Part shown: one piece after another, positions 31,249-35,002 of the stretch | Layout of the letters: every line of letters begins with the position of its first letter | Numbering within the stretch: the stretch's first letter is position 1 | Assembly: GCF_027920545.1 (NCBI RefSeq) | Contig: NZ_CP115859.1 | Span: forward strand, 1,854,001 to 1,918,000 | Length of the DNA: 64,000 nt | Source of the DNA: Chryseobacterium camelliae | Lineage (GTDB): Bacteria; Bacteroidota; Bacteroidia; Flavobacteriales; Weeksellaceae | Reading direction: 5' to 3' | The notes under the pieces: generated by a model | Told to the model about the DNA's origin: nothing | Database searches by the model: none | Seen by the model: the letters and a program-made list of their open reading frames with translations, nothing else | Translations under genes and position numbers: made by a program

Positions 31249-31271
31249 AAGGAGACTTATTTCGTCTCCTT
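31249..31271 (-). terminator. Terminator closing the rtcB-prfH operon
   Basis: Stem AAGGAGAC/GTCTCCTT (31249-31256 with 31264-31271) followed on the minus strand by TTTTTT. It coincides with the stop codon of the TPR gene. Confidence 0.8.
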
Positions 31272-31772
31272 CTTCTTTTTAATTTTGTTTTTCTTCGGCA
31301 TTTTTGATTTGATAAATTTCTTACGATCCTTTATTGCGTTCCAACTGTATTCGGTAAAACAATATTTTTCAGCTTCATCCAGAAATTTTAATGCATTGGC
31401 AAAACTTCCCCGTTTCTCGGAAAGCAGAGATCTGTAAGACCATAATGCAGATTTATCAATCCCTTTGATCTTCAATGAATATCCAATCAGTTTTTCGGCT
31501 TCCTGAAAATCTTCATTATCCAAAAGACATTTTATATAATATTGAGGAACATTCAGGTTTGTCACATCACATAGCATTGCTTCTTCAAAATACAATTTGG
31601 CTTTTTCATAATCACATAACATTTCACTGTAAATTCTTCCCATCAAACACAAGCTGTCTGCATCTTCAGGATCATAAGACAATGCATAATTCAACGCTTC
31701 CAGACAATCCGGCAAGCTGTACGGATAATTGTCTAAAGCCTCAAAGTAATATTTATTTTTAGTTAAGGTCAT
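31257..31772 (-). CDS. TPR-repeat protein, last gene of the rtcB-prfH operon
   Basis: A 171-residue protein with about three or four tetratricopeptide-like units (ALSYDPEDADSLCLMGRIYSE, then ENYEKA-like AKLYFEEA, and LKFLDEAEKY). The C-terminus is a strongly basic KKNKIKKKKE tail. No signal peptide, so likely cytoplasmic. It overlaps prfH by 14 nt, so it is translated with it. TPR repeats serve protein binding; a link to ribosome repair is inferred only from position, since the operon could also carry an unrelated gene. Confidence 0.75.
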   Translation of the reverse strand: MTLTKNKYYFEALDNYPYSLPDCLEALNYALSYDPEDADSLCLMGRIYSEMLCDYEKAKLYFEEAMLCDVTNLNVPQYYIKCLLDNEDFQEAEKLIGYSLKIKGIDKSALWSYRSLLSEKRGSFANALKFLDEAEKYCFTEYSWNAIKDRKKFIKSKMPKKNKIKKKKETK

Positions 31773-32457
31773 TTTTGTATTTTTTTAATTCATTTTTCAG
31801 CTGGTTTCTTTGCTTTTTGAAAGATTTTTCCTGATAATTCCTTTTAAAATCAGTTCCGGAAAATGTACGGACCGGATTTCCTCTCTGCACCTGCAAATGA
31901 TTGTTCCAGGTTTCCTGCATTCTTTTCTGAAGCCGAACAATATTCTGTTCCAATACTTTTTCTTTCAATCTTGTAATGGAAAGCTTCTTATTTTCCAGTT
32001 GCGAACGGGAGTCCTGTACGAAAACACTTTGTCCTGTCGGAATATAAGTAGCACGAACAGCCGTGTTCACTTTATTTACGTTTTGCCCGCCACTTCCCTG
32101 ACTTCTCGTCGTCTGAAACTGAATATCTTTTTCATTAAAATTAATTTTCTCCAAACCTTCCAGCTCAAAAACACCGATGAACCAGTTGCTTCTTTTATGC
32201 AGTTTCCGGAACGTACTTTTACCCGTCCAGCAAATACTTCCTAACCAATTGCTTAAAAACTCATTTACATCTTTTGCTTTTAAAAGTAGGGTTACAGATT
32301 TTAAAGTCAGGTTTTCATCACCATTCTCCCGATGGATGATATCGTAGTCTATTGTATTATCTTTTGCATCCTCAAGAAAAACCTTCAGAACTTTTGCAAC
32401 TACCCATTGACATTCTAAAGGACCTCTTCCCGAGGTTATTTGTATAAGTTTTTCCAT
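31759..32457 (-). CDS. prfH: Peptide chain release factor-like protein PrfH
   Basis: A 232-residue class I release factor homologue. GGQ is at residues 123-125 within [10 protein letters not shown], followed by TAVRATYIPTG and RSQLENKKL. The N-terminal stop-codon recognition domain of RF1/RF2 (PxT or SPF motif) is missing and replaced by a shorter domain. Known PrfH proteins release peptides from ribosomes whose 16S rRNA is cut at the decoding site, as by colicin E3-type toxins, and RtcB then re-ligates the RNA. The gene overlaps the zinc-ribbon gene upstream by 22 nt and the TPR gene by 14 nt. E. coli PrfH is truncated; this copy looks complete. Confidence 0.93.
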   Translation of the reverse strand: MEKLIQITSGRGPLECQWVVAKVLKVFLEDAKDNTIDYDIIHRENGDENLTLKSVTLLLKAKDVNEFLSNWLGSICWTGKSTFRKLHKRSNWFIGVFELEGLEKINFNEKDIQFQTTRSQGSGGQNVNKVNTAVRATYIPTGQSVFVQDSRSQLENKKLSITRLKEKVLEQNIVRLQKRMQETWNNHLQVQRGNPVRTFSGTDFKRNYQEKSFKKQRNQLKNELKKYKNDLN

Positions 32458-33023
32458 TTTTGTAAAATTTTTAAAAGAGCTTCTCTGTTTTTAGCTTCTT
32501 TAATAAATGTTGGCAGCCTTTCTACCATTCGCATCCTATAGGGCAATCTTGTCCTCAGATCAGATGAAACATAGTTTTCCATTTCCAGCAGATGTTCCCT
32601 GTTTTTTGCCCAGAACAATTTTCCTTTAAAATCCGTCTGAAAATAATACGGACAACCGAAAATAGGATCATGAATCAATCCTTCTTCTTTGACGGACGAA
32701 TTCAAATATTTTTCACTTCTTGCCTGGATTTGAAATGAAGATTCACACTCGTCACACTTTACGTTTACATTTTTAGGTTTTTCCTTTAAATTCCCTTGTT
32801 CATAATGAATAGAGTGTGCACAAATCGGACAATTTAGTTTTACAAAAGCCTTATAAACAACTAAATCCAATCCGCTTTTCCGCAAACCACAATGTCTGCA
32901 TTCCAGTGTTGCCTGTTTATAATTATTTTCATTTTTCACAACAGCATCTTCTCCGCAATCCGGACAGACTACGAGAATGTTTTCGTGATAATTAAAATAT
33001 TCCTGTTTATATCTTTTTTTCAT
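32436..33023 (-). CDS. Double zinc-ribbon protein between rtcB and prfH
   Basis: A 195-residue protein with four CxxC knuckles: Cys20/23 (CPDCG), 42/45 (CRHCG), 65/68 (CPICA) and 90/93 (CDECE). They would make two zinc ribbons in the N-terminal half. The C-terminal half (about 100-195) has FGCPYYFQTDFKG and a basic, arginine-rich stretch (LRTRLPYRMRMVERLP). I do not recognise a named family. Zinc ribbons plus basic residues suggest RNA or ribosome binding. Its 22-nt overlap with prfH and position after rtcB imply a role in the same process; this is inference. Confidence 0.8.
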   Translation of the reverse strand: MKKRYKQEYFNYHENILVVCPDCGEDAVVKNENNYKQATLECRHCGLRKSGLDLVVYKAFVKLNCPICAHSIHYEQGNLKEKPKNVNVKCDECESSFQIQARSEKYLNSSVKEEGLIHDPIFGCPYYFQTDFKGKLFWAKNREHLLEMENYVSSDLRTRLPYRMRMVERLPTFIKEAKNREALLKILQKWKNLYK

Positions 33024-33103: not shown

Positions 33104-34495
33104 TTATTTATCCATTCTCACAATTCGGGGTTGAAAAGTTCCCAGAATATCAACCAATTCACTCTGTGCACGCATCACTTCGTTGATGTCTTTGTAAGCC
33201 ATTGGTGCTTCTTCTGCATTTCCACCCATCAAAGTGACGTTTTTAAGTTTCAATTCTTTTTTGATGTCATTTTGAGTGAAAAGGCTTCTGCATTCACCTC
33301 TCGAATGCGCTCTGCCCGCTCCGTGAGAAGCTGAGTTCAAAGAATCCGGATTTCCTTTTCCACGAATGATAAAGCCTTTTGCCGTCATTGATCCCGGAAT
33401 CATTCCCAGCTCATTCTCGTTGGCAGGAGTTGCCCCTTTTCTGTGAACAATCACTTCTTTTCCGTTGTGAATTTCCTTCCACGCGAAATTGTGATGGTTT
33501 TCAATTCTTGCTTTTACCCGTCCTCCAACAACTTTCACCAATCTTCTGTGAATATCGTCATGACAAGCCGAAGCATAATCTCCTGCCAAATTCATAGCTG
33601 TCCAATATTCCAATCCGAGATGCGTACTCAAATCCAGCCATGCAAATTGTTGTGCTTCTTTTGGTAACGGACATTGTTCTGCCGCCACTCTCGAATAATA
33701 TTGAGCGATTTCAGCACCCAATCCACGGGAGCCACTATGTGAAAGAATTCCAAGGTATTTTCCTGTCGGAAGTCCGATTTGTTTGTCTTCTTCCGTAATT
33801 TCAACTTCTCCAAATTCCACAAAATGATTTCCGCCTCCGGAACTTCCCATTTGTTTAATGGCTTTCCCTTTTAGTCTTCTCAAAACCGGAATCATGTCAA
33901 ACGTATCTCTGTCGAAAATTTCGTGTTCGACGTGAGATTTATGCGTTTCATACATCCCGAATTTCGTATGCTCGGCAAGAGCTTTCTCGTATTTATCTCT
34001 TGCTCCGTCAAGATATGAAACAGGGGTATCCAAAATACTCAGGCTCATTCTGCAACCGATATCCATACCGACTCCATAAGGAATTACGGCATTTTCTACG
34101 GCAAGAACTCCTCCGATCGGAAGCCCGTAACCGCTGTGTGCATCGGGCATTAAAGCGCCCTGCGTTGAAATTGGAAGTTTCAAAGCCGTGTACAGCTGGT
34201 TTTTTGCCTCCTCAGAAATATTGTCTCCGAAAATCTGAAAAGAAGCACGATTGGTGTTCAGCATTCTTTTTTCGGTTTTCTTCGATGAAAGCAAAGCTTC
34301 TGCAATCTGTCCGAAAGTCAGATCTTTTTCAAAATTTTCCGGATTTTGCAGAATTTCTTTTAAAAGAGATTTCACATGATGAATGTTTTTCGTTGCAAAA
34401 TTTCTTTTCATGACTTCCAAAGCGATGTTGACACTCTGATTGTTTGGATAGCCTATTTTTAATATATCTTTTCCTTTAATTTTTAAATTTCCCAT
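33104..34495 (-). CDS. rtcB: RNA-splicing ligase RtcB
   Basis: A 463-residue RtcB ligase joining 2',3'-cyclic phosphate or 3'-phosphate ends to 5'-OH ends, using GTP and manganese. Metal-site motifs are present: MPDAHSGYG (about 116-124), DIGCRM with Cys148, GGGNHFVEFG (220-229), HSGSRGLG, and His391 in HGAGRAHSR, the guanylylated residue. The size fits RtcB types linked to prfH. It is the first gene of the operon rtcB-zinc ribbon-prfH-TPR, 80 nt before the zinc-ribbon gene. Confidence 0.96.
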   Translation of the reverse strand: MGNLKIKGKDILKIGYPNNQSVNIALEVMKRNFATKNIHHVKSLLKEILQNPENFEKDLTFGQIAEALLSSKKTEKRMLNTNRASFQIFGDNISEEAKNQLYTALKLPISTQGALMPDAHSGYGLPIGGVLAVENAVIPYGVGMDIGCRMSLSILDTPVSYLDGARDKYEKALAEHTKFGMYETHKSHVEHEIFDRDTFDMIPVLRRLKGKAIKQMGSSGGGNHFVEFGEVEITEEDKQIGLPTGKYLGILSHSGSRGLGAEIAQYYSRVAAEQCPLPKEAQQFAWLDLSTHLGLEYWTAMNLAGDYASACHDDIHRRLVKVVGGRVKARIENHHNFAWKEIHNGKEVIVHRKGATPANENELGMIPGSMTAKGFIIRGKGNPDSLNSASHGAGRAHSRGECRSLFTQNDIKKELKLKNVTLMGGNAEEAPMAYKDINEVMRAQSELVDILGTFQPRIVRMDK

Positions 34496-34626: not shown

Positions 34627-34740
34627 TTAGAGCTGTGCTTATTACCAGCCCCGATTGCAGCGACATCCTTTTTTGTTGCGGCCGCAGCGAAGCGGAGGCC
34701 GTAATGAAAAAGATACAGCGGAAAGCGGGATAAAGCTCCT
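34627..34740. repeat. GC-rich REP-like dispersed repeat
   Basis: A locally GC-rich block (contrasting with the AT-rich surroundings) with an inner hairpin at about 34679-34701 (CGGCC and GGCCG arms around AGCGAAGC). Partly complementary outer arms surround it: AGCCCCGATTGC and GACATCCTTTTT on the left, AAAAAGATACAGC and GCGGGATAAAGCT on the right. I recall similar CAGCCCCGAT...GACATCC elements between genes in Chryseobacterium, so this is probably a REP-type repeat. Confidence 0.6.
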
Positions 34741-34792
34741 AAAAATTTTATAAAAAAGATTTCGGGGAAACTGATTCGAGTTTGAAATATTG

Positions 34793-34830
34793 CGCAATAA
34801 AAAACCCGAAATCTTACGGCTCCGGGTTTT
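34793..34830 (-). terminator. Terminator of the candidate RNA
   Basis: The arms AAAACCCG (34801-34808) and CGGGTTTT (34823-34830) form a stem with a 14-nt loop. On the minus strand it runs into TTTTTTATT. Confidence 0.75.
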
Positions 34831-34969
34831 GATATTTCATTGTACTGTTATTCTAAGAGTGTACCAAACCACGAAGCCTCGCCTTTACAAAAGGCAATCC
34901 TACTGTTGAATGTAAGTTGAATCTGAACATTGCTTCGTTGTTTTTTTAAATGGTTTAACTTGATTTTCA
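34795..34969 (-). ncRNA. Candidate structured RNA upstream of the rtcB operon
   Basis: About 175 nt without an open reading frame, with a promoter at 34974-35002 and a terminator at 34793-34830. On the minus strand, stem ACGAAGC/GCTTCGT closes a multiloop holding an AATGT/ACATT hairpin and a GCCTTT-TGT-AAAGGC hairpin. A TTGGTAC/GTACAA hairpin (one bulged G) follows, then the AAAACCCG/CGGGTTTT terminator. All pairs were read directly from the sequence. It starts about 470 nt and ends about 300 nt upstream of rtcB, on the same strand. It may be a stand-alone small RNA, or be similar to a known Bacteroidota motif such as Flavo-1; I cannot tell which. Confidence 0.65.
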
Positions 34970-34973
34970 GATG

Positions 34974-35002
34974 CAAAGATATACTAATTTTTGAATAATC
35001 AA
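34974..35002 (-). promoter_or_regulatory. Bacteroidota-type promoter of the candidate RNA
   Basis: On the minus strand TATCTTTG (34981-34974) matches TAnnTTTG exactly, and TTG (35002-35000) lies 18 nt upstream, within the usual -33/-7 spacing. Transcription should start near 34969. Confidence 0.7.

Follow-up and report, generated by a model that had tools for sequence, protein, structure and literature searches.

A probable ribosome-sensing leader in front of the rtcB-prfH operon of Chryseobacterium camelliae

What does the short stretch of DNA in front of the rtcB-prfH operon of Chryseobacterium camelliae do: does it release a small RNA of its own, or does it decide whether the genes behind it are transcribed? 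The window analysed here, the whole 64,000-nt stretch of contig NZ_CP115859.1, carries on its minus strand rtcB (33104..34495; Pfam PF01139, E 3.1e-80), which is the first gene downstream, followed by genes for a zinc-ribbon-like protein (32436..33023; weak matches), the release factor H-like PrfH (31759..32457; Pfam RF-1 domain, E 1.8e-21) and a TPR-like protein (31257..31772; TPR matches below cut-off). Accessory ZnR and TPR genes have both been described in RFH-RtcB operons, and the proposed role of PrfH and RtcB is the rescue of ribosomes that RNA damage has jammed (PMC6514570); the operon of E. coli protects against colicin E3 (PMC9223846, in excerpt). Between the stop of the upstream ORF (35078) and rtcB (34495), inspection of the sequence finds a minus-strand unit of about 200 nt comprising a promoter, a leader and a terminator. 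The original prediction regarded this unit as a structured small RNA encoding no protein, and most of the parts that it named are present: a TTG at -33 (35000..35002) and, 18 nt away, the -7 element TATCTTTG (34974..34981), within which TAt.TTTG is conserved in the alignment (both as in the Bacteroidota-type promoter consensus), placing the likely transcription start near 34967-34969; a 7-bp stem ACGAAGC/GCTTCGT; an inner hairpin GCCTTT/AAAGGC; and a terminator, AAAACCCG..CGGGTTTT, with a T6 run. A further hairpin, TTGGTAC/GTACAA, forms 4 bp in the minimum free energy structure, but is weak, and the consensus fold built on 69 homologues lacks it. The claim that no protein is encoded fails: all 69 distinct homologues from the genus keep a 25-codon ORF (34930-34853) unbroken. 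With this ORF and a set of mutually exclusive pairings present, to call the stretch a non-coding small RNA would be too simple. The earlier observation is thereby partly confirmed and its interpretation partly supported: this is a promoter-driven, structured and conserved RNA tied to rtcB-prfH, and a regulatory RNA was among the options offered. My reading, set out below, is that the element is very probably a ribosome-sensing, leader-ORF transcription attenuator of the rtcB-prfH operon.

Comparison and folding identify four regions of the leader that can form three mutually exclusive helices, 1-2, 2-3 and 3-4, all on the minus strand. Region 1 (ACGAAGC, 34932..34938) sits immediately before the leader start codon and has an outer part, ACCA (34951..34954), that pairs with a TGGT (34863-34866) on the 3' margin of region 2; in the consensus fold this outer helix occupies columns 20-23/109-112, where pair 23/109 is A-U in 50, C-G in 11 (both sides changed) and broken in 8 of the 69 sequences. 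Region 2 (GGCUUCG[U]GGUUU, 34866..34878) has two alternative partners, regions 1 and 3, as judged from duplexes, state folding and covariation, and region 3 (AAACCCGGAGCC, 34818..34829) pairs with region 2 as an antiterminator or with region 4 as the terminator. Region 4 and its U-run (GAUUUCGGGUUUUUU, 34799..34813), of which the letters within the helix are GAUUUCGGG, make up the 3' arm of the intrinsic terminator, recognized from sequence, folding and the consensus fold, and the T-run ends at 34799. The internal hairpin GCCTTT/AAAGGC (34881..34895), spanning codons 12-17 of the ORF, is part of the consensus fold and covaries, three of its pairs being preserved through changes on both strands of the stem in 21, 25 and 29 of 69 sequences; it is a candidate pause hairpin. 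Immediately past the terminator T-run lies a perfect palindrome, ATTGCGCAAT (34789-34798), which is strongly conserved in the genus and some near genera and not conserved further out.

The minus strand folds better than its shuffles (-37.2 against a mean of -27.7 kcal/mol, z -2.64, with 2 of 200 shuffles as good), and the window's duplexes come to -14.3 kcal/mol for 1-2, -18.8 for 2-3 and -13.5 for 3-4. The best duplex that the ORF stretch makes with region 1 (-15.0 kcal/mol) is reached by 17 of 1000 shuffled stretches, and its best with region 3 (-19.5 kcal/mol) by 2 of 1000. Both the consensus fold of 69 and the exchange of partners between lineages reveal covariation in the stems. Near the window, regions 1/2/3 read ACGAAGC/GCUUCGU/CGAAGUC, while regions 1/2 read ACGAAGACA/UGUCUUCGU in some loci of a Flavobacterium type (the genus name is a guess) and ACGAAGAAAA/UUUUCUUCGU in further lineages; the 2-3 helix contains a bulged U, visible in the Flavobacterium loci, and its second half runs GGUUU/AAACC, GGCUU/AAGCC, GACUU/AAGUC or GAUUAC/GUAAUC by lineage. 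When partners were swapped among 13 lineage representatives, drawn from 68 of 73 distinct triples (those with shorter flanks or other keys being dropped), own 1-2 pairs averaged -11.3 against -9.3 kcal/mol for swapped ones, with 1 of 20,000 permutations as good and the own pair stronger in 122 of 156 comparisons (1 tie), and own 2-3 pairs -14.8 against -12.1 kcal/mol, with 15 of 20,000 permutations as good and the own pair stronger in 114 of 156 (4 ties), figures that are not strict probabilities because the grouping into lineages was manual and leaves some dependence among them. Regions 1-2 and 2-3 thus covary across lineages at the level of sequence comparison.

The leader ORF itself (34853..34930, minus strand) reads MFRFNLHSTVGLPFVKARLRGLVHS in the window and consists of 25 codons followed by TAG in all 69 distinct genus sequences. 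Its substitutions resemble those of a coding sequence: with 90 sequences arranged as 45 nearest-neighbour pairs, the dN/dS-like ratio is 0.44 in frame and the two alternative frames give 0.94 and 0.72, and 4 of 300 column shuffles were equally low in frame. The ratio of amino-acid-changing to silent substitutions is 0.75 over codons 3-13 and 0.32 over codons 14-25, which overlap the RNA helices, a sign that constraint on the first part of the peptide is loose and that the RNA explains part of the coding signal. In other lineages the leader peptide is quite different and takes up 19-29 codons; the ORFs of L125 and L127 stop exactly before region 2. Because the peptides differ in this way and the early codons are loosely constrained, the peptide is probably not the signal; it is probably the position of the ribosome that is read, and the peptide sequence would matter little. 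As for where a ribosome would sit, the core of region 1 begins 7-11 nt before the leader start codon, and 110 of 119 distinct sequences keep a distance of 24 nt from the region 2 core to the end of the stop codon, across ORF lengths of 60-90 nt, with 97 of the 119 having a 78-nt ORF. The stop codon is TAG in 111 of these sequences, TAA in 6 and TGA in 2; a sensor of UAG, and hence of release factor 1, was considered on account of the frequent TAG and rejected, since TAA and TGA also occur.

How these parts could work together is suggested by folding them in defined states. With the start region of the window's leader masked and region 4 still unmade, region 3 folds onto region 2 (P 1.00), and with the footprint of a ribosome at the stop codon masked, region 3 folds onto region 4 (P 1.00). 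Across 18 representatives, a masked ribosome on the first codons, with no region 4 yet, gives 2-3 pairing at P of at least 0.99 in 18 of 18, and a stop-codon footprint over region 2 gives 3-4 pairing at P of at least 0.81 in 17 of 18, the exception being L124 at P 0.02. In the proposed mechanism, transcription from the upstream promoter would yield a leader RNA whose 25-codon ORF would be translated; a ribosome completing the ORF would cover region 2, letting 3-4 form and halting RNA polymerase before rtcB, whereas one that stalls on the opening codons would cover region 1 and leave region 2 free to capture region 3 before region 4 is made, so that no terminator would form and rtcB-prfH would be transcribed. 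With no ribosome and region 4 absent, 17 of 18 representatives have region 3 on region 2 at equilibrium (P >0.5); a leader that is not being translated could therefore be ON instead of OFF, and the 1-2 helix may prevail through kinetics only. Once the leader is complete and region 1 is masked, equilibrium favours the terminator in 12 of 18 representatives, with one of the 12 nearly even, so antitermination has to happen while the RNA is being transcribed. I consider it rather likely that early-codon stalling by damaged ribosomes is the natural signal, and the likely inducers would be ribosomes that initiate without elongating, as when the decoding centre is cut, tRNAs are cleaved or antibiotics act on the ribosome. 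The choice between 1-2 and 2-3 might instead be set by a bound protein, for instance RtcB or PrfH acting in autoregulation, for which the identical RNA pairs would serve and which draws on the expectation from family knowledge that the operon proteins bind RNA or ribosomes; yet such control leaves unexplained why the ORF is open, why the start codon lies beside region 1 (whose core begins 7-11 nt ahead of it) and why region 2 keeps its 24-nt spacing to the stop, and I hold it to be the least probable of the explanations weighed here.

A ribosome-sensing attenuator could also respond to the nascent peptide, and the RLR motif found in 57 of 69 genus peptides raises the possibility that the leader arrests ribosomes together with macrolide-type drugs, much as in the RLR-bearing leader of hflXr, itself an attenuator (PMC6310831). 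In that Listeria system, rli80/hflXr, which like erm-type leaders is a close parallel, a 14-aa ORF and switching RNA structures detect stalled ribosomes and govern a gene for ribosome rescue, with RLR tied to arrest by drugs; here the decisive position would instead be close to the start codon. The motif is lost in other lineages, which have CLRG, ILRG, LLRG, RFG or, in L125 and L127, none of these, and on this anatomy a ribosome arrested at RLR would sit over region 2 and favour the terminator. As the RLR nucleotides fall inside region 2, RNA pairing explains their conservation. I regard arrest by the peptide as improbable, and macrolide sensing of the RLR type (+x+) was set aside on the ground that the motif is conserved no further than the near genera.

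Ribosome-position control of the operon presupposes that polymerase arrives through the leader. Of the 142 loci recovered by pattern, 103 have a promoter of the form TTG-N16..21-TANNTTTG no more than 90 nt ahead of region 1, and none of 138 stretches between the terminator and the first downstream homologue has one; the pattern is strict, with 39 of 142 leaders failing it, and weaker internal promoters could escape. With a promoter upstream of the leader and none seen after the terminator, operon transcription therefore plausibly depends on read-through. Five element-bearing loci (L020, L044, L120, L121 and L149) were missed by the pattern scan and are omitted from pattern-based counts because their cores deviate, and several of the pattern loci duplicate one genome. 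Taken from sequence, a leader ORF, the 1-2, 2-3 and 3-4 pairings and a consensus promoter confined to the stretch ahead of the terminator make up the anatomy of an attenuator that acts in cis on the operon, and the terminated leader RNA of about 170 nt would be its by-product.

If the element acts in cis, it should travel with the operon, and within the genus it does. A DNA search finds it once in its own genome and in 147 of 148 sampled genomes of the genus, the match in G124 being only a 52-nt piece at the edge of a contig; rtcB is found in 145 of the 148. In every one of the 145 that have both, the element precedes rtcB by 188-1605 nt on one strand and one contig, the gap being below 600 nt in 55, 600-1300 nt in 85 and larger in 5. 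G079 has neither. G124 (73% complete) and G147 have the element and no rtcB match; in G147 PrfH gives no match either, and the leader there keeps its ORF and pairing regions although the nearest downstream ORFs point the opposite way, which counts against the attenuator. The spacing classes trace to a basic 249-aa protein with no Pfam match (such as L022:429-1178, minus strand), which in many genomes sits between leader and rtcB and in 55 of 138 pattern loci takes the place of rtcB as first downstream homologue, or, in one genome, to an inserted gene that resembles a transposase; RFH-RtcB operons are described as having positively charged accessory proteins (PMC6514570). Two genomes combine an intact leader ORF with rtcB and prfH that look broken or partial: G040 (L064) has stops inside rtcB and, in two matches, prfH, and G142 (L057) has a cut rtcB and no full PrfH match.

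Beyond the genus, a covariance model matched 204 of 296 genomes of the family at E <= 0.1, chance-level rows included. A second search of 30 of these from other genera gave 30 loci, of which 28 were examined, L129 and L130 (E about 0.012) being set aside; 26 of the 28 have rtcB (24), prfH (1) or the TPR gene (1) downstream, and L126 and L128 (E 1.2e-4 and 8.4e-4), which match in the terminator alone, were taken as chance. In other families of the order the rtcB search listed 21 matches of the window's type and 14 of a second type, of which 21 and 11 were fetched. Among the 21, all 20 with prfH carry the layout (19 by pattern, L149 by eye), and L134, the one that lacks prfH, lacks the layout too. 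It is also absent from all 11 second-type loci, whose fetched stretches contain no prfH. Upstream of rtcB in seven of these (L154, L156-L159, L161 and L162) the eye picks out operator-like sites, TACGCA(or G)-N7-TGCGTA/TGCGCA, that suggest a protein-based control of another kind; L152, L153, L155 and L160 have none, and in L152 and L153 sequences of tRNA-like appearance stand directly before rtcB. In the class Bacteroidia, 22 of 295 genomes have PrfH, and the 14 outside the order were fetched. Five of the 14 (L166-L169 and L171) show a short leader ORF, a terminator and 2-3 complementarity that few mononucleotide shuffles match (0-2 of 100, with several terminators tried per locus). L165 has the ORF with complementarity at chance level (56 of 100), no terminator was detected in L164, and the remaining seven gave nothing convincing, some of them having another gene upstream.

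The rival that the earlier prediction favoured, a stand-alone small RNA of about 170 nt acting in trans, for example as an RtcB substrate, a Y-RNA-like RNA or a ribosomal decoy, has in its favour the element's own promoter and terminator and its persistence in G147. Against it stand the linkage to rtcB on one strand in 145 of 145 genomes and across families, the open ORF with coding-like substitutions and the alternate pairing of region 2 with regions 1 and 3; no evidence for any of these roles was found, and I regard it as improbable. No Rfam family, 6S and Y RNA among them, reaches its gathering score within the element. The one match at gathering score is Flavo-1 (RF01705), which lies beside it at 34643-34736 on the plus strand, between terminator and rtcB; apart from this there are five matches far below their gathering scores (E 0.043 to 2.7), of which BTnc005 (E 0.043) and Trp-leader (E 0.78) were dropped for that reason. 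Of 20 homologous loci scanned, 14 have a Flavo-1 match, downstream of the element and on the opposite strand, and the genome has 10 such matches, 6 over the cut-off. The three outcomes that the earlier prediction named as refuting it, a known RNA family, lack of conservation next to rtcB and lack of covariation, thus all came out in its favour.

The nearest known counterpart is in Pseudomonas aeruginosa, where armZ (PA5471, RtcB-like) and PA5470 (prfH) share a message under a 13-aa leader peptide, PA5471.1, through whose translation the cell senses disrupted ribosomes (PMC3516279). In the model put forward there, complete translation leads to a 3-4 terminator, and placing an amber codon at position 3 raises ArmZ (PMC13041342); a review describes the attenuation as proposed and still to be confirmed (PMC12057347). 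The window's element shares the target genes, the proposed four-segment layout and the logic of early stalling turning the genes on. It differs in its 25-codon leader, its phylum and its TPR-like and zinc-ribbon-like neighbours, and armZ has been studied as a regulator of an efflux pump; the leader peptide of a Pseudomonas sp. relative reads MQQLITPCRTCLV and bears no visible resemblance. The E. coli K-12 homologue ykfJ is reported to be inducible by 4-azaleucine, which interferes with translation (PMC3516279). In E. coli and other proteobacterial loci, a short ORF with a strong Shine-Dalgarno site stands before rtcB2 in 7 of 10 tested, where shuffles lead one to expect 0.20, and L180, L183 and L191 lack it; the set leaves out L178, L181 and L184 as near copies of the E. 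coli locus, L192, which has no rtcB2 match, and L193-L263. Three of the seven were compared for regions 2 and 3, and their changes match (GCAGAC/GUCUGC, GCAGGC/GCCUGC and GCAGGACG/CGUCCUGC). Attenuators of the trp/his type share the 1-2, 2-3, 3-4 logic with ribosome position as signal, but this leader has no run of codons for one amino acid. RtcR also controls an rtcB operon in response to RNA damage, as a protein sensor and not through a leader peptide.

Among open-licence PMC papers the searches listed none on a leader of rtcB-prfH in Bacteroidota, so the element is new for that phylum as far as searched; it could be one of the 64 structured leaders that a transcriptome study of F. psychrophilum tabulates (PMC9723704). 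The review's remark that leader control of an anti-repressor appears unique to MexXY (PMC12057347) may hold for the anti-repressor, yet these data suggest a wider leader control of the rtcB-prfH operon. A bolder reading, about as likely as not, is that leader-ORF attenuators are the general control of rtcB-prfH operons in Bacteroidota and Proteobacteria: damaged ribosomes able to start on the leader but not to elongate would switch on their own repair, and PA5471.1, a clinically studied switch, would be one local re-use of an old or repeatedly invented damage sensor whose peptides and RNAs differ while the four-segment logic stays. The attenuator reading predicts that translation inhibitors induce rtcB-prfH in flavobacteria.
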